Source: Pseudochrobactrum asaccharolyticum (lineage in GTDB: Bacteria; Pseudomonadota; Alphaproteobacteria; Rhizobiales; Rhizobiaceae). Taken from it: DNA of 64,000 nt. A program made the position numbers and the translations under genes. Positions 16,232 through 55,851 of this stretch are shown here, one piece after another (position 1 is the stretch's first letter; the number at the start of each line of letters is the position of its first letter). The stretch spans positions 310,001-374,000 of the forward strand of contig NZ_QNRH01000004.1 of the NCBI RefSeq assembly GCF_003314995.1, read 5' to 3'. The notes under the pieces are model-generated. The model searched no databases. It was given only the letters and a program-made list of their open reading frames with translations, and was not told the origin of the DNA.

Positions 16232-16282
16232 TCCGGTTGACAAAGCCCGCAAAGAAGCTGGCATTGTCTAATCGCTGAATAT

Positions 16283-48386: not shown

Positions 48387-48756
48387 GCCATATTTCTCCG
48401 CGCTCTGTTTTTTCGATGAAACAAAAGCCCAGAAGACACGCGATGCGTTTTCCGGCTTCGGAGGTGCAGAGCACCACAATCTCAGAGTAAGAGCTCGAGG
48501 CTAGCGTCAACCGTATCTGACTGATTAGGAAATGCATGTGTTTGGCGGCATCAGGGGTTACTATAAACCACCCCTCAGCACCGGTTTCGATTGGATATAA
48601 ACCGAAAAGACCAATCAACTTATCATCAAAACGCAGTGTGAAGGTATCACCACCGGACCACATTTCCTTGACAACAGCCCAATGGAGTTGTGTTTTTGCA
48701 CCTGCCAACTCGGCCATATCAAAAATAGTTGCAGGAGATATGACTTGATATTTCAT
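48328..48756 (-). CDS. GNAT-like phage protein, T7 gp13-like
   Basis: 142 residues. The segment IGLFGLYPIETGAEGWFIVT and the later VVLCTSEAGKRIACLLGFCF read as a GNAT fold without a clear acetyl-CoA loop. T7 gene 13 protein, required for head assembly, has this type of fold. Overlaps TerL by four bases (ATGA-type). Confidence 0.6.
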   Translation of the reverse strand: MKYQVISPATIFDMAELAGAKTQLHWAVVKEMWSGGDTFTLRFDDKLIGLFGLYPIETGAEGWFIVTPDAAKHMHFLISQIRLTLASSSYSEIVVLCTSEAGKRIACLLGFCFIEKTERGEIWHGRNFWRIKQSSRSAKATN

Positions 48757-50444
48757 CGCCGGCCAACCCTATGAGGATCAAACCCACCACGAGATCCGGA
48801 ACTCCATGGCGAACCACCAGCTGATGGTTTCGAATTTGAAAATCTATTACCTTGCCGTGAGTGGTCTGCAGCACCACGAAGAACACCGGTACGCCCACGA
48901 AAACCAAGGATCAGATATTGAAGGCCATCTTGCACGTCTGACCACGGGTGCGTTTTTTCTGGCTGCTCCTCGAATTCCGTCGAGGCTGTTTCTTTTCGAC
49001 GCTTAAACCGATATTTCCCATCAAAGCCCTCAAGTAGAAAAGGACATTTTTCGGGGCAAATGATCATTTCGCTATCGGGCTCATGATAGCCACGCAATTC
49101 AGTTTTCACGGCATCCATACGCATGCCGAGCTCATTTGAGCCACCTGCAGGAATGAGAACGGGCAAACTCAGGATCATGGCAATGGTTTCCATCGCCGCG
49201 AGCTGACCACCTTCACGATCGGCGCCGTACTCAGCTGCAGGGTCACACCAAATCCGAACATTGCTGGCACTCGAATAATCAGCTTCAAGTTTTCTTAGAA
49301 GCCCTTCCGCGAAGCGTGCAGCACCAACACCATGGCCGAGATAGAGTTCATCGATAACAGAAATACGTCCAGTGCCTTTTACTTGGCCAAATACGGCAGC
49401 TGGGTTGAGCGTATTCATTGAAATATCGATACCTATACCAAGCGTTAGCTTAGGCTCGAATGTAATCCGGAAGCGAGCAACATGGATAGTGCGATTGAAT
49501 TTTTCATAGACAGGCTTGCCGTGACGAGAATAACCAAACTCGTTATCAACCATTCGTTTAACGAAATGCTCATCCTGGTTGCGGATAATACGGGAATAAT
49601 AATCAACCTCGAGGTTGAATAAATTTTCTGCCTGCTCAGACTGGCCTGAAGGCTGGCGATATAACTTTCTATCTTCGGTTACTTTTTTGACGAAATCCTT
49701 ATAGACCCAATTATCAACCGTCGGAGCATTCAGATCACCGATAACGAAGCGCTGGCGCTGACCTGAAAACACCTTATGCCCGAGCTGTTTACTAAGGTCT
49801 TCGAGCTCCTTAACTGTTAGCAAAATATTAGCCGAGGGATAACGGCCGACGCGCTGCTCGAGGTCGTCTAGAGCTCCCTCAGAATGCGTATCTGCTTCAT
49901 TAAGCCAGCCACCGGAATATTCACGGCCTTTCATCAAAGTTTCGATCGAGTTTTCACCAAGGCCAGCAAATTCGGTAATAACCTCGATGCGGATCCCGTC
50001 CGATCCCATGAAGCGGAGCGTGTGTGTTACCGGTCGATCATTGCCCCCCGCCCATTTACAGCCTGGGAATGTTTTAGGAAACCATTGCTTCCAGCTCTCC
50101 AGAACTGTCTTTTCTGCTGATCGAAAGGTATCGCGGAGAACAATCCACCGGCACATGCGCGTTGGCTTACCATCTTCCGGATGCCAAGCTACAGGCGCAA
50201 GAGTAGCTGCGAGAATACGTCTGAACGCGCAAAGGGTCGTCTTTCCTCCACCCAATGGCCCCATAATGAAGGCGGTTAGAAACGTGGAGTTTAAGAATTC
50301 CTCACCTATGGGACCAGGCGGAGTGTAATTAAACGGATCGAAGTCACCAAAGATTTCAAGCTTAGAAACCAGTTCGCGGACTTCATCTTCGCTAAAAATT
50401 TTAATGTCGTCGCGACTGACAATATTGGCGATGTGATGTGACAT
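48753..50444 (-). CDS. Terminase large subunit
   Basis: 563 residues. ATPase domain with Walker A GPLGGGKTT (62-70) and a following hydrophobic strand, then an RNase H-like nuclease region starting near LTLGIGIDIS. It cuts and pumps DNA into the head. Its start overlaps the stop of the upstream frame (TGATG). Confidence 0.92.
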   Translation of the reverse strand: MSHHIANIVSRDDIKIFSEDEVRELVSKLEIFGDFDPFNYTPPGPIGEEFLNSTFLTAFIMGPLGGGKTTLCAFRRILAATLAPVAWHPEDGKPTRMCRWIVLRDTFRSAEKTVLESWKQWFPKTFPGCKWAGGNDRPVTHTLRFMGSDGIRIEVITEFAGLGENSIETLMKGREYSGGWLNEADTHSEGALDDLEQRVGRYPSANILLTVKELEDLSKQLGHKVFSGQRQRFVIGDLNAPTVDNWVYKDFVKKVTEDRKLYRQPSGQSEQAENLFNLEVDYYSRIIRNQDEHFVKRMVDNEFGYSRHGKPVYEKFNRTIHVARFRITFEPKLTLGIGIDISMNTLNPAAVFGQVKGTGRISVIDELYLGHGVGAARFAEGLLRKLEADYSSASNVRIWCDPAAEYGADREGGQLAAMETIAMILSLPVLIPAGGSNELGMRMDAVKTELRGYHEPDSEMIICPEKCPFLLEGFDGKYRFKRRKETASTEFEEQPEKTHPWSDVQDGLQYLILGFRGRTGVLRGAADHSRQGNRFSNSKPSAGGSPWSSGSRGGFDPHRVGRR

Positions 50445-50940
50445 CAGGAGACCTCACCAGATATGGCGCTGATCGGCGCGCGCGATAGCGCATGCGCGCC
50501 GAATAAAAATAAGCCGCTAAGCAGCAGAAGCCGAAGGCGATTGCTGCGCAGCGTCCGCTTTTCATTCCATTCCTCTAAAAATCGAAAAGACTTTTCCCCG
50601 ACCCCTGGGGAGGCGAGAACGGGCGCGGTGCACCCATAACGCCACCCCCGAACCCCAAGGCGAGGCAAAACGCTCCCGGCGAAATTGTTAACCTTTAGTC
50701 TGAATTGCGAAAATAGGGATCGGTGCGCGTAAGCATACCCCTGATAGGGGGGGAGGGGGCCATCTTCGGGAAGGCCATGGCCGGAGGCCATGGCACTGCT
50801 GCCGGTGACGGCCGCCTGCTCAGTGCTGGCGTCGCACTGGGAAGAAAGGTCGATCGGTCGAAAATGGCCGGTCCCCTCAAAACACATGGTGTTATACAAA
50901 TGATATTGTGTCATCTGCTTTTTATTGCATGTGATTGATT
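50445..50940. other. GC-rich structured gap between terS and terL
   Basis: An open minus-strand frame of 166 codons spans it and ends in TGATG on terL, but its composition (many Arg/Leu/Pro, no family likeness) and dense inverted repeats make me doubt it is a gene. Notable elements are an 8-bp perfect palindrome pair (CCATGGCC-GGA-GGCCATGG, 50775-50793), a 7-G run next to a 5-G run (50747-50759) and CCCC/GGGG pairings near 50600. It could hold the packaging start site. A short frame from an ATG near 50562 with AGAGG before it is also possible. Confidence 0.4.
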
Positions 50941-51534
50941 TCATTTGCTTTTACCTTCCGTCCGACTTCCTGCTGTCCGACTTTGATTTTCATCGTTAGC
51001 TAAGTCATTGATTTTATTGGAAGTCAGTTCAACGATAGGCCGACCGACAGTCAGTCCCTTTTGCGCTGCAATTTGCTTTGCCTGGTCGATCTGGTTGGTG
51101 CCGGAATTGATCACCAGCATTGGCAGACGCTCATCTTCAACCACAATGCGCACCGGTGCTTTGCCATGCAGGTATGGTGCCAGATCACGAGCGCAGGACA
51201 TCTGCTCTTTCACGATATCGATCAGCGCTGGCACCGCGAGGCCAAATTTCTTCCCAATCGCTTTCTGTGTCCGCTCATGCTCGATGAAGAAGGCTTGAAG
51301 CGCCACAGGATCGGAAGACATGAATTCAGCCTGCAATTCCAGCGGATCCTTGAAGCCCTGCGCGTCATACCAAGCCTGAAAGTCTTTGGTTTTCTTATTT
51401 GTTGCGCCCTTTGGCCTGCCACGTCCACGCAGCGCAGCCTTCGCCGGATCTTCGCGCTCCAGCGACGAGGCCGCATCGGAGCGCCAATCATGCCCCGTAT
51501 TCTGATCATTATCGATTATTTTATTCTCTGCCAT
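50941..51534 (-). CDS. Terminase small subunit
   Basis: 197 residues. A basic AT-hook-like RGRGRPKGATNKKTKDF (about 37-53) is followed by helices (LELQAEFMSSDPVALQAFFI, KKFGLAVPALIDIVKEQMSC), as in podovirus small terminases that recognise the packaging site. It lies before terL in the transcription order. The repeat cluster at 51544 sits 9 bases before its ATG, where the ribosome site should be. Confidence 0.8.
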   Translation of the reverse strand: MAENKIIDNDQNTGHDWRSDAASSLEREDPAKAALRGRGRPKGATNKKTKDFQAWYDAQGFKDPLELQAEFMSSDPVALQAFFIEHERTQKAIGKKFGLAVPALIDIVKEQMSCARDLAPYLHGKAPVRIVVEDERLPMLVINSGTNQIDQAKQIAAQKGLTVGRPIVELTSNKINDLANDENQSRTAGSRTEGKSK

Positions 51535-51542
51535 TGTTCACG

Positions 51543-51774
51543 CTGTCTAATGACTGTCTAGTGATTGTCTAATGGTGATTGTTTAATTAAATCAGTTACT
51601 TACTTTTATATTTAGACACTTAGACAATTAGACATATTAATAATCTCATACGTATGCGTATGTACGTGTGTTATGAGAGATAACGCTGTCTGATTGTCTA
51701 AGTGTCTAATTTTATGACTAACTGTCTGTAATATTTGAATAATGTCCGTTAGACACTCATTAGACAGTTAGACA
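51543..51774. repeat. Iteron-like array of TGTCTAA/TTAGACA in nested inverted repeats
   Basis: Thirteen copies of TGTCTAA (or one-base variants) in four clusters: forward at 51544, 51555, 51566 (11-bp period); reverse at 51612, 51620, 51628 (8-bp); forward at 51687, 51695, 51703, 51723 (8-bp, then 20); reverse at 51749, 51760, 51768. The outer clusters form a 19-bp inverted repeat with two mismatches (51543-51561 / 51749-51767). The inner ones form a perfect 17-bp inverted repeat (51612-51628 / 51693-51709). A TCTCATA / TATGAGA palindrome (51644-51650 / 51672-51678) sits in the middle. See findings for possible roles. Confidence 0.85.
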
Positions 51775-51928
51775 GTTTATTGCGGCTCACCACTCGTTAT
51801 GCGTTAGGCTACAACAGGTCGAAAACTGTCAACCGCGAAGTTTTCAGCATGCAAAAGGGTTAGGGTCGGGCTTTCACCCTGAAAAATCGGACAAAATGGC
51901 GGGTCTATACCGCCATAGGTTGCATTCA

Positions 51929-53773
51929 TCATCTACTTTGCCATCGCTCGAACTCATAAAGGGAAATGAAGGTGCACCGCACCTGACGGCCGGCGACAGT
52001 CACACGATTGTCCATGCGACCTCCACCAACATCGATTTTCTGTTTCACAACGGTTGGCTCACCGCGCTTGAATGCAAAGTTCCAGCTGCCCTGTGTTCCG
52101 CTCGAGAATGGCGTACCAGTCAGCGCTCGTGCGAGAATGCGGCTTTGGTTAGGAATAGCCAACATCGGCTGTCTTGCTGTCCCCATAAGACCGAGATCAA
52201 TGGCCGCGAGTTTTTCTTTGGTGTCACTAAAACCCTGCGTTTCTTTACGTAATAGCTCGAGCTCCTGCGCTACAGTCTTGCGCTGACCACCGGTAAAGCC
52301 ATCGATGACAGATGTGAGAATATATCCGAGACATTGCTCCCAAGTGGCGGCTTTGCCTTCCAGCTCAGGCAGATTGTCTGCTGCCAGCCATTCACCCCAT
52401 TGTGAGAGATCACGATCAGGTAGGCCAAGTTCACGCATGCCTACATCACCAAGCATAGTGTGCGCAACAGCGAGGAATGTGCCAAAAGTTTTTTGACCAC
52501 GGCTATCGTGACCATGCTCGCGCAATACATTGCTGTAATCATCCAGTCGATATTGGAGCTCGTCCCATCCATCTGTTAATACACGTAAAAGGCGAGGCCC
52601 TACGGTCTCAGCCGCAGGCAGCACCGGCGCTTTTGTACTGGTGGATTTGAGCGGTAGCAGCTGAATGATTGCGAGACGTGTTAATGAGGCAGGCGGCAGA
52701 GGCGGAGGATTAATACCTGAAAAGAAAAAGGTCGATTGCGCTTGGAATTCAACGCCTTTGTGATTTTGACCGCCGCGAATACGTACGGAGCCACTGGCAG
52801 CATCACGCGCCATTTTGATTACACGCTGCGCTTGCTCCTGCCCTTCATCACCTTCCATTTCGTCGATCGCGATCGGAACACTGTCATGCCCGACAAGCTG
52901 ATATAGACCAGCCTCAGATGCGTTCGTTGTCGAGACCATCATCCGGCCGAGAATTGTTTTCAGCACACCGAATTTACCGGTGAGTTCAGATTTACCGGTG
53001 CCAGCATCACCAACAATAAAGAGGGAAGGCCGCCAATCCAAAGCGCCGCCAAGCATGGCAACGCCGATACTGCCAAGCAGCAGGATTGCATCAACGTCAC
53101 CGCGATCCATATTCCACGTTCTGAGAATTTTCACGACAGATGCTGCCGGATTATCTTCTGGCGCTACCGGATCTGCCCATGGGGACATCGATCGTGGCCG
53201 CCGCACATAAAGATGATCACCATATTCACCGGTGTCTTCGATCGCGCCATCGATCCACATATGATCGCCGCAATGCAAAATCAGTTTGCCTTGGCCATCG
53301 CGCCATGCACCACGTCCGCGAACCATATCGGTTGAAGACCACGCGCCTCGCTCACGACATGCCGCAAACATTGCGCGTCTGACCATCTCGGACTTAAAAC
53401 CGGTTACACGGCCGCCTTTATCATAGGCGGGGAAAGCCCAATCCAGCCACTCTTCATGGCCGGCAAACAGCTTTTGCAGGCGCTCAACACCAAGAGCGCC
53501 GTCACCTGTGTTAAAAACCTGCCCCATAGTATCGATGAAATAAAAGTGCTCGCCGTCATATCCGAGCGGACGCACAGGGCAGTTATATGGCAGATAGCCG
53601 GTAGTATCGACAAAACCATCATCGATCCAGCCACCAGGCTTAATACCATCAAGATCTTTGCCACGTTCCGGATACGCAGCAGTTTTTCGTTTTTCTGCGA
53701 GCTTCACACGGTTGACGGCTCCGCCTATCAATCCGCCTGTTTTCCGGATGCCCGCCTCGTTTTCCTGTTGCAT
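51929..53773 (-). CDS. Phage replication helicase/ATPase (DUF927-like)
   Basis: 614 residues from the ATG at 53773. Walker A GDAGTGKS (about 255-262), a Walker B-like VPIAIDEMEGD (about 304), and a sensor-type SGINPPPLPPASLTRLA, as in DUF927/superfamily 3-like phage helicases. Its partner is the Toprim primase two genes upstream. It is the last early gene before the repeat array. Confidence 0.8.
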   Translation of the reverse strand: MQQENEAGIRKTGGLIGGAVNRVKLAEKRKTAAYPERGKDLDGIKPGGWIDDGFVDTTGYLPYNCPVRPLGYDGEHFYFIDTMGQVFNTGDGALGVERLQKLFAGHEEWLDWAFPAYDKGGRVTGFKSEMVRRAMFAACRERGAWSSTDMVRGRGAWRDGQGKLILHCGDHMWIDGAIEDTGEYGDHLYVRRPRSMSPWADPVAPEDNPAASVVKILRTWNMDRGDVDAILLLGSIGVAMLGGALDWRPSLFIVGDAGTGKSELTGKFGVLKTILGRMMVSTTNASEAGLYQLVGHDSVPIAIDEMEGDEGQEQAQRVIKMARDAASGSVRIRGGQNHKGVEFQAQSTFFFSGINPPPLPPASLTRLAIIQLLPLKSTSTKAPVLPAAETVGPRLLRVLTDGWDELQYRLDDYSNVLREHGHDSRGQKTFGTFLAVAHTMLGDVGMRELGLPDRDLSQWGEWLAADNLPELEGKAATWEQCLGYILTSVIDGFTGGQRKTVAQELELLRKETQGFSDTKEKLAAIDLGLMGTARQPMLAIPNQSRILARALTGTPFSSGTQGSWNFAFKRGEPTVVKQKIDVGGGRMDNRVTVAGRQVRCTFISLYEFERWQSR

Positions 53774-53794
53774 CAAAAATATTTTTCCCCAGCT

Positions 53795-53845: not shown

Positions 53846-54775
53846 TCAGTTTTGCTTTTTGCCTTTTGATGATTTTTCAGCCGTCTGGCTGTCATCAGCA
53901 GTCAGTTCGGCTTTGGCAGCATCTGTTTCTGCTCCACCTGCAGCATCGTTTTCGCCAGCCGCTTCGGAAGCTTCATTTGCCACCGCCGGTGCCAGTTCAG
54001 CAGAATTCTCACCCGCTCCTGGAGCGGCCGGTGAAAGTTCTTCGCCCCTTCCGCCGTCTGCTGTAGCGTCCAGTTCAGGTGCTTCACCCTGTGCATTTGT
54101 ATCTGCTGACGGCGTGCCGCCAACTTCCGATCCGTTTTCTGAAGCTGTTTTCGCATTGATTTCATCCTGATCGATTTTGCCTAAAGATAGGGAGCCAGAT
54201 GCTACTGGCAGCGTGAAGCCAACAGGCTCCGCAGGCGGAATTACAGCTGCAGCTTGGCGCTTGGCAGCGTCCGCCTGATCTTTCAGAAATTGCTTTTGAT
54301 AGTCATGCTGATCATTGAGCGAGGCTTCCGGCTCAAAAATACTATCCTCGAGGGCGAGGGGCGCAGGATCAGCCCGATTAGCTTCCCGCTCAGCCTTTTC
54401 AGCTGCCAGCTGCGCCTTGCGCATTTCCAATTCGGCACCGAGGCACGTACTGGTAAATGTGTTGAAGGCCACCTGATGCGCAAAAGTAAGCTGATCAAAT
54501 TGCAGTTGCTTCAGTTCATCCTGCACGATCAGGCCAGCAATAATGCCATAGCGCCAAAGCTGCTCACCGATCGCGCCGGTATTCGCGGTATATTCCGCAA
54601 GCGCCATTACTTCGGTTTCCTCAGCCTCCGGATCTTGACTGCCGCCATACCAGTCAAAGCTGCTGCCATGCAGATCGGCATTGCCTTCAGTCAGAATTTC
54701 AAAGGCACGAAATGCCGCGACATGTGCAACAGCACCGCCATATTCCACGGCATTGATTTTGAGAATATCGGCCAT
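53846..54775 (-). CDS. Phage protein with acidic Ala/Glu/Gly-rich tail, function unknown
   Basis: 309 residues from the ATG at 54775, which overlaps the primase stop (TAATG, AAGGAG upstream). The N-terminal half is helical and contains many hydrophobic residues (QLWRYGIIAGLIVQDELKQL). The second half (about 190-300) is a low-complexity Ala/Glu/Gly/Asp tail ending in Lys. Placement between primase and helicase suggests a replication accessory, such as a DNA-mimic or single-strand-binding function; this is inference only. Confidence 0.65.
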   Translation of the reverse strand: MADILKINAVEYGGAVAHVAAFRAFEILTEGNADLHGSSFDWYGGSQDPEAEETEVMALAEYTANTGAIGEQLWRYGIIAGLIVQDELKQLQFDQLTFAHQVAFNTFTSTCLGAELEMRKAQLAAEKAEREANRADPAPLALEDSIFEPEASLNDQHDYQKQFLKDQADAAKRQAAAVIPPAEPVGFTLPVASGSLSLGKIDQDEINAKTASENGSEVGGTPSADTNAQGEAPELDATADGGRGEELSPAAPGAGENSAELAPAVANEASEAAGENDAAGGAETDAAKAELTADDSQTAEKSSKGKKQN

Positions 54776-55851
54776 TACCAGCCACTCCTTATTGCATCGT
54801 TGACGTCTTTTCCCCATTCAGCCGGCATCGAGATAACCTCGACCGGCTTCCTGAAGCTTTTGATGCGCGCGACTGCTCGTTCGAACAGCGCTTGCGCTTG
54901 GGGTTTTCCCCAATCGTTGTCTTTGAAAATGATCCAGCTCGAGACGGCCGGATGATCCGGAACGGTCAAAAGACCGGACAAACTACCTGCTGACCACATG
55001 CGCAGCTCTGGCTCTGAGATCGCGACAGATGCGCCATCCTCAATGCCCTCGACAATTCCGCATATGCCTTTAACGCCTTGTTCTGCAGCATCTTCGGCCG
55101 ACAATCCGCTCGCGCCATTGGTCAGCCGAATGACAAGGCCGGAAGTTTCCGGAAACATGAGTTTGGACTTCTCCACATCAGCCTTGCCGGATCCGTCATT
55201 GCGCAAAAATGTATAATGGCAGGCACCAATCCGGCCGCCGCTATCAACCATTGCCGATATGAGGGCAGGGATATGAGGTCGCTGCGGATCCATCCAATAT
55301 TCACAATCTGGGCGGTAGCGCAGTGACCGGCCGAGATTTGGAACCTTAGAAATATCAATGTTGCGGGACTTGAAATATGTCTCGACCGGTGTGTTCAGGA
55401 TCTGACTACTGCAGCTGAAGAAGAACTTGCGAGCGCGAGATATGGAGGCTTCACGGCGCTTTGCTTCTTTTGCATCCGCTGCTTTTCTCCGAGTTGCAGC
55501 CTCCGCTGCCAGCTGCTCACGCCGATCGGCAGACATGCTTTTCAGGCCATACCGGTCTTCAACCCATTCAACAGCTGCAATGCGTGTTTCATCTGTCACT
55601 GCACCGGTCAGGCCGAAGGCCACCAGATCGATCGCATCGCCCTTGTCACCAGATACAAAGTCTTTCCATGCACCGCGACGATTGCCCTGCAGCCATACAG
55701 CCATCTGGTCAGGCTTGGATTTTGCGCGATATGGATTAGCAACATTCCAGAGGCCGGAGCGTCTATGCTTACGGTTGGCGCGCAAAAGCTGCTCGATAAT
55801 ATTCTCGAGATCATCCAGAACACGGTCTTTGGCGACAGAAAAACGGCTCAT
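54775..55851 (-). CDS. Toprim-domain DNA primase
   Basis: 358 residues. An N-terminal region (WNVANPYRAKSKPDQMAVWL) is followed by a Toprim core with Glu in GIVEGIEDGASVAI and an Asp pair in IIFKDNDWGKPQAQAL. It lacks the four-Cys zinc finger of DnaG, like many short phage primases. It makes primers for phage replication with the helicase downstream. Confidence 0.82.
   Translation of the reverse strand: MSRFSVAKDRVLDDLENIIEQLLRANRKHRRSGLWNVANPYRAKSKPDQMAVWLQGNRRGAWKDFVSGDKGDAIDLVAFGLTGAVTDETRIAAVEWVEDRYGLKSMSADRREQLAAEAATRRKAADAKEAKRREASISRARKFFFSCSSQILNTPVETYFKSRNIDISKVPNLGRSLRYRPDCEYWMDPQRPHIPALISAMVDSGGRIGACHYTFLRNDGSGKADVEKSKLMFPETSGLVIRLTNGASGLSAEDAAEQGVKGICGIVEGIEDGASVAISEPELRMWSAGSLSGLLTVPDHPAVSSWIIFKDNDWGKPQAQALFERAVARIKSFRKPVEVISMPAEWGKDVNDAIRSGW

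Follow-up and report, generated by a model that had tools for sequence, protein, structure and literature searches.

A heptamer array beside a D5/MCM-type helicase gene is a probable replication origin of a Pseudochrobactrum asaccharolyticum prophage

In a prophage of Pseudochrobactrum asaccharolyticum, short repeats form an ordered array, arranged around a dyad, between the gene for a D5/MCM-type helicase and a TerS-like gene. The present analysis, which covers a 64-kb stretch of DNA (the window), suggests that this array (51543–51774) is very probably the replication origin of the prophage, and that it is bound by the neighboring helicase via the C-terminal region of that protein. Judged by sequence comparison, many phages and small plasmids have an array of the same design but spell it with other words. 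The literature searched, of which coverage was partial, contained no report of this array.

Results

Layout of the Array

The array, which spans about 230 bp and has no strand of its own, sits in the 394-bp gap that separates the helicase gene (51929–53776) from the TerS-like gene (50941–51534), both on the minus strand, and it starts ~155 bp beyond the helicase stop codon. A scan of 51540–51779 yields 14 heptamers of the TGTCTAA type, 10 of them exact and four carrying a single-base change (TGTCTAG at 51555, TGTTTAA at 51580, TGTCTGA at 51687, and TGACTAA at 51715). They are grouped into four clusters with alternating orientations (+, −, +, −) about a dyad at ~51661. Cluster A (51544–51586, plus strand) has exact copies at 51544 and 51566 together with the variants at 51555 and 51580, the first three heptamers following an 11-bp period. 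Cluster B (51612–51634, minus strand) consists of three exact copies, at 51612, 51620, and 51628, with an 8-bp period, which returns in cluster C (51687–51721, plus strand), where the variant at 51687 is followed by exact copies at 51695 and 51703 and by the variant at 51715. Cluster D (51749–51774, minus strand) contains exact copies at 51749, 51760, and 51768. Between clusters A and B lies a spacer without strand (51587–51611) that is 84% AT and is a candidate unwinding stretch. Inverted repeats span the dyad: a perfect 17-bp inner pair (51612–51628/51693–51709), an outer 18-bp pair with one mismatch (51543–51560/51750–51767), and a TCTCATA/TATGAGA pair (51644–51650/51672–51678) centered on 51661. 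An earlier note on this DNA had described 13 copies in four alternating clusters with 11-bp or 8-bp periods; the clusters and periods stand, and the count is corrected to 14. Its inner repeat and its palindrome at the shared center can be read directly in the sequence, whereas its outer repeat, reported as 19 bp with two mismatches, is present at the shorter length and better match given here.

The occurrence of such heptamers in four alternating clusters is far beyond chance. In 2,000 dinucleotide shuffles, exact TGTCTAA appeared 0.09 times on average and at most twice, compared with the 10 copies observed, and the commonest heptamer of any kind reached no more than seven copies; elsewhere in the 64 kb the exact word is found once, at 16265. 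A search of the genome with the gap sequence found no second copy of the helicase–terS gap, and a nucleotide search of a phage collection with the array region returned zero matches. GC skew shows no switch around the array and supports neither side.

The Helicase and Its Neighbors

The prophage genes in the window include those for a terminase large subunit (48753–50444, minus strand, matched by tblastn to annotated phage TerL proteins), a head–tail connector, a major head protein, tail, a primase, and an integrase. Because the element has terminase, connector, head, and tail families of its own, it is not classed as a PICI or satellite. The primase (54775–55851, minus strand) has matches to the DUF7146 and Toprim_3 domains and belongs to the same module as the helicase. 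The TerS-like protein is named by position only; it belongs to phrog_15261, a family of unknown function, and a comparison with phages gave zero matches. Its start codon lies 9 nt past the array. The earlier note had placed one cluster over the probable terS ribosome site; no clear Shine-Dalgarno sequence was seen in the 9 bases from cluster A to the putative ATG. The TerS-like gene is in turn separated from terL by a gap of ~500 bp (50444–50944), similar in size in several relatives, which contains an overlapping 166-aa reading frame.

A structure model of the helicase, a protein of 615 aa and the putative reader of the array, has a mean pLDDT of 83.3. By Z-score, its best structural match is SCCmec Cch (Z 16.0, 341 aligned, 5.3 Å); SaPI5 PriRep scores Z 13.5 (327 aligned, 5.5 Å), and many MCM proteins, at Z about 13–14, come nearly as high as Cch. 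Foldseek matches the model to D5/E5, AsfvPrimPol, and NrS-1, and a sequence search with the helicase profile against solved structures gave 18 weak matches, nearly all at the ATP-binding-loop stretch. The C-terminal region (residues 478–615; 51932–52345, minus strand) is the putative iteron-binding region. Modeled alone (mean pLDDT 91.5), it has three helices and a strand pair, which we read from the model as winged-helix-like, followed by a small domain that ends in a hairpin. Foldseek found no significant match for this region among solved structures (best E 0.67). The best VIA-align scores, Z 4.4 with an accessory protein of the pCW3 relaxosome and Z 4.3 with the C-terminal part of SaPIbov1 Rep (97 aligned, 4.5 Å), are too weak to name a fold, and P4 alpha is not among the matches listed, an absence that excludes nothing. 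Two viral proteins in BFVD match the region, with E values of 9e-5 and 5e-4.

Conservation of the Array and Change of Its Words

In IMG/VR, the helicase is found in five loci, one with 100% and four with 71–75% identity; two of the latter (L036 and L037) have the same sequence across their shared part. All four of these 71–75% relatives carry the same four clusters, and most heptamer columns are invariant in a wider alignment, while the gene order helicase–array–TerS–TerL is seen in many further phages found via TGTCTAA itself. With the same or other words, the layout is kept at helicase identities down to 30–45%; a prophage of Stappia sp. BW2 (L091) has the word of the window. An unbiased heptamer scan of distant relatives recovered, at comparable positions, GTGTCCC, GTGTACC, CTGTCTC, TGTAACC, TGTTCCA, and others, and TGTTACC is a further word among the relatives. 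The words differ within one bacterial order and even within one family, f42 (CTGTCTC in L166, TGTAACC in L168), and for this reason a host protein is unlikely to be the reader. When related prophages were checked for the heptamer layout, the array proved to be ordered, and neither absent nor scattered, where the flanking genes are conserved; the symmetric layered design, at first considered unusual, is thus a recurrent one.

Association with the helicase is directional. Among nonredundant relatives from a protein search, 31 of 68 have an array in the 1.5 kb downstream of the helicase gene, compared with 3 of 65 that have one upstream. The count began with 89 loci, lost five whose helicase match did not reach the cut-off and 16 that were copies, too short, or truncated, and leaves out the window's own locus and the loci found by heptamer pattern. 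Two of the three upstream arrays are GC-rich CGATCGC; the third, in Acinetobacter phage Acjo_20, is taken as real. Under the strict criterion, the other 37 of the 68 relatives yielded no array; they include 16 of the 17 records from the phage collection, where 14 of 17 proteins are 840–970 aa long, vs. about 600 aa for proteins like that of the window. In Acjo_20 and in Bdellovibrio phage phi1422 the array is next to the replicase, in the latter at 7.5 kb from TerL. Ten genome loci (among the fetched L160–L179) have both TerS and an array, which is directly upstream of TerS in all 10; in these and in the window, the distance to the TerS-like gene is about 10–270 bp. In L171, a 6.3-kb insert with genes for a type III restriction-modification methyltransferase (E 8e-171) and its partner restriction enzyme (E 2.7e-12) parts the helicase from the array, which stays with TerS.

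Arsenophonus Plasmids as a Natural Experiment

The sequences that argue most strongly for the helicase as reader are those of four plasmids of Arsenophonus nasoniae (according to their records, three linear and one circular), in which 11–13 exact copies stand right behind the helicase gene. The cluster order >>>> << >> <<<< is exact in two of them and nearly so in the other two. Plasmid paNv_CH14, of 8,190 bp, has the helicase and the array; no terminase is among its five annotated CDS, and tblastn with TerS found nothing significant on it. Where TerS is annotated on these plasmids it lies 3–6 kb from the array, which is followed by no head or terminase gene. TerS is 93–96% identical among three plasmids with three different words, and the helix-turn-helix (HTH) protein is 93–99% identical in three of the four, again with three different words. 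The Rpn protein is 87–93% identical among plasmids whose words all differ, and a small gene that precedes the helicase gene shows 94% identity between two plasmids with different words. Near-constant beside changing words, these proteins are poor candidates for word readers: on these plasmids TerS can hardly be what reads the iterons, and the small HTH protein comes close to being excluded as well. Protelomerase, 69–88% identical among the plasmids, is not reached by this argument from high identity, but it has no annotation on the fourth. The helicases of paPv13 (L185) and paNv_CAN17 (L186), whose words differ, are 98% identical over alignment columns 50–450, 75% over columns 451–600, and 37% over the last 24.

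These plasmids have further features of note. On paPv13, paNv_CAN17, and paPv15 (L187), terS occurs without an annotated terminase large subunit, which is reminiscent of phage satellites, and two of the three also carry an annotated protelomerase. Genes annotated as acyl-homoserine-lactone synthase and LuxR-type are present on paNv_CAN17 and also on the Phaeobacter plasmid pP11_f (L189; 37131–37718 and 36445–37056), which has phage structural genes and, following its helicase, inverted GTTAC-type repeats that fall below threshold.

Covariation of Word and Helicase C Terminus

Suggestive covariation links the word to the helicase C terminus, most of all in the hairpin at residues 588–605 (51962–52015, minus strand), which contains Q598. 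The set comprised 47 nonredundant loci with arrays, of which nine were left unclassed by judgment for an odd word or a poorly matching C terminus (L065, L155, L179, L180, L184, L192, L202, L203, and L204); with L185 added, 39 classed loci gave 20 representatives. With similarity taken relative to the helicase core, pairs that share a word resemble each other more closely at residues 576–612 than pairs with different words do (p = 0.008), whereas seven of eight other segments of the protein have p > 0.19 and the eighth, 201–260, has p = 0.022. A simpler count, with pairs binned by core identity, points the same way in all but one of the six bins; in the 60–75% bin, which has only six different-word pairs, same-word pairs are not more alike at the C terminus (44.4 vs. 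46.3). The association is strongest at residues 588–605, where none of 500 permutations attained the value observed. Position 598 is occupied by Q in all six representatives whose word is of the TGTCTA, TGTCTC, or TGTACC type and in none of the 14 others, and its column has the highest raw information of the columns listed, columns 182 and 255 being higher after normalization. Both Q598 and the segment 588–605 were picked post hoc, after inspection, and their link to the word is to be taken as suggestive.

A Purine–Pyrimidine Tract at the Dyad

At the dyad (51644–51678, no strand), the TCTCATA and TATGAGA arms flank a run of 25 bp (51647–51671) in which purines and pyrimidines alternate. Tracts of this type favor Z-DNA. 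No other run of this kind in the 64 kb matches its length: when the 64 kb were tiled with 1,100 overlapping segments, four contained a run of at least 25 bp, about what this single run yields, and none contained a longer one. In a hand-picked, nonrandom set of 25 arrays from helicase relatives, the longest alternating run has p ≤ 0.02 in 19 (300 shuffles each) and is positioned at 0.45–0.58 of the array length in 23. The p-values are ~0.03 for L185, ~0.04 for L035, and ~0.06 for L187, L167, and L056, and phi1422 (L157) has no central tract (p 0.42). Central runs of at least 12 bp occur in 24 of 24 TGTCTAA arrays in the window's helicase family vs. 8 of 22 other, hand-picked TGTCTAA arrays; the tract is therefore not general, but a feature that recurs in most of the examined relatives of this helicase family.

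A Wider Class of Arrays

Pattern searches show that arrays extend beyond these relatives. Six or more copies were present in 39 of 52 viral loci for TGTCTAA and in at least 46 among the 80 fetched for TGTTACC, but in none of the 15 viral loci found with a scrambled control, TCTGATA, in the same pattern. In genome contigs, 16 of 64 TGTCTAA loci reach six copies on both strands; L106 and L114, among the genome loci, look like unrelated tandem repeats. The helicase profile matched a positive control and none of 15 records reached through array loci, which indicates that TGTCTAA is also used beside other replicases, a sharing of the word for which we have no explanation beyond its use in the search. 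At 72 array loci the fetched stretch holds no helicase relative, and 47 of these have a reading frame of at least 300 aa within 1.5 kb. The largest such neighbor matches DUF5906 in 15 of the 47 and is VapE-like in 10, two groups that may overlap; fewer match Prim-Pol, DUF3987, DUF927, or terminase. The controls were 53 proteins, 12 from beside scrambled-word matches and 41 of 43 distant ones from array loci, and DUF5906 and VapE each account for at most one of them.

Individual loci show other arrangements. In Symplocastrum torsivum (L136, 4250–4529), 13 exact TGTCTAA copies are situated inside a 1,118-aa DUF3987/PriCT_2 reading frame, so that the array lies within a replicase gene and its copies encode LDKLDK and LSNLSN repeats. 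In phage BcepC6B (L182), the interval from gp46, the polymerase/primase gene, to gp01 falls at the ends of the record as deposited and contains two GGGACGATA repeats together with two copies in inverted orientation, possibly a two-cluster origin.

Discussion

The association of the array with the helicase gene, its presence on plasmids, and the covariation of word and protein support one of the three roles put forward in the earlier note, that of an origin for the adjacent primase and helicase. In the model we favor, the phage helicase, encoded just upstream of the array in transcription order, would use its C-terminal region to bind the TGTCTAA iterons, probably in the form of two hexamers, one on each half of the dyad. 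It would then open the duplex close to the AT-rich spacers and to the alternating purine–pyrimidine center and load itself, after which the Toprim primase of the same module would prime synthesis. We infer the physical binding, the hexamers, the melting, the direction of replication, and the role of the central tract from the arrangement of genes and repeats.

The two other roles considered in that note, a packaging site read by TerS and a late-gene switch, lose ground as the main function, given that the array stands beside the helicase on plasmids that have no neighboring TerS and that near-identical TerS proteins accompany different words. A packaging initiation site (pac/cos), at which the iterons would be TerS sites and cutting would take place near the dyad, would account for the short distance by which the array precedes the TerS-like gene, in the window as in 10 genome loci, and for the array remaining with TerS in L171 after the insertion; cut sites near terS, with dyad symmetry, are common in phages. 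On the Arsenophonus plasmids, however, where TerS is kilobases away or was not found, the word does not change with TerS, and in phi1422 and Acjo_20 it is the replicase that the array accompanies, which together make packaging a very unlikely main role. An operator covered by a phage regulator, or by the helicase itself, to hold back terS and the head genes would fit the end of cluster A 9 nt before the terS start, and a bound hexamer could block transcription arriving from the helicase gene. Against this, a scan for promoters and terminators at the array found none above shuffled sequence (promoter-like matches, 2 vs. a shuffle mean of 1.0), no head genes follow the array on the Arsenophonus plasmids, and the HTH protein there hardly varies across three words. 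We consider a dedicated switch extremely unlikely, although an effect on late genes may arise as a side effect of an origin. Inverted iteron clusters occur in centromeres too, but no partition gene is annotated on paNv_CH14, whose gene table may be incomplete, and the variety of words among prophages of a single order and family is hard to reconcile with a host protein; the array is almost certainly neither a partition centromere nor a host-protein site.

If the array is the origin read by the helicase, its signature, consisting of alternating heptamer clusters and a purine–pyrimidine dyad near a D5-type helicase gene, may help to locate origins in many uncultured phages; to our knowledge, the replication origins of most temperate phages are unmapped. 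The natural word swaps provide material for solving the recognition code of the helicase, and a Z-DNA-prone tract that recurs at the dyad of the putative origin makes the old question of Z-DNA function testable. A broader proposal, which we advance tentatively and hold to be somewhat less probable than its opposite, is that helicases of the D5/VapE/DUF5906 type use their C-terminal region to read, by a decipherable code, a heptamer that varies and often starts with TGT; that such origins form a widespread, unnamed class among phages and plasmids; and that, in the helicase family of the window at least, the Z-DNA-prone sequence at the dyad takes a functional part in opening the origin.

The helicase shares its fold, as detected by Foldseek, with NrS-1 polymerase and the D5/E5 viral helicases, and in L131 an NrS-1-like gene adjoins a TGTCTAA array. 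The winged helix of phage P4 alpha is C-terminal, a possible likeness to the window's helicase, but P4 alpha is a single fused protein and its iterons are different from those of the window. It is reported to be a helicase–initiator with a winged-helix origin-binding domain (PMC10516667). SCCmec offers a closer parallel: Cch is the best structural match of the helicase, and Cch2 is reported to bind repeats downstream of its own gene with its C-terminal domain in vitro (PMC7581432). That binding site, unlike the window's array, has only three short iterons (AAGTG), and the primase there is CCPol-MP (PMC7581432). Similarly, SaPI Rep is reported to use its C-terminal domain to read iterons located just 3′ of its own gene (PMC7581432, PMC6092414). 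The window resembles such SaPI/PICI rep–ori modules in the position of the array 3′ of the initiator helicase gene, shared with many of its relatives, in short iterons arranged in sets, and in a similar helicase fold by structure comparison. SaPI/PICI origins are described as having two iteron sets around an AT-rich stretch, whereas the window has four alternating clusters with AT-rich spacers between them and a Z-DNA-prone dyad; unlike these elements, moreover, its phage carries its own virion genes and integrase and a separate Toprim primase. These likenesses suggest that phages equipped with virion genes of their own, as well as protelomerase plasmids, make use of a satellite-type rep–ori, and, by analogy, we infer that the array works like the SaPI and Cch2 origins, but in a phage that builds its own virion and with a layout of its own.
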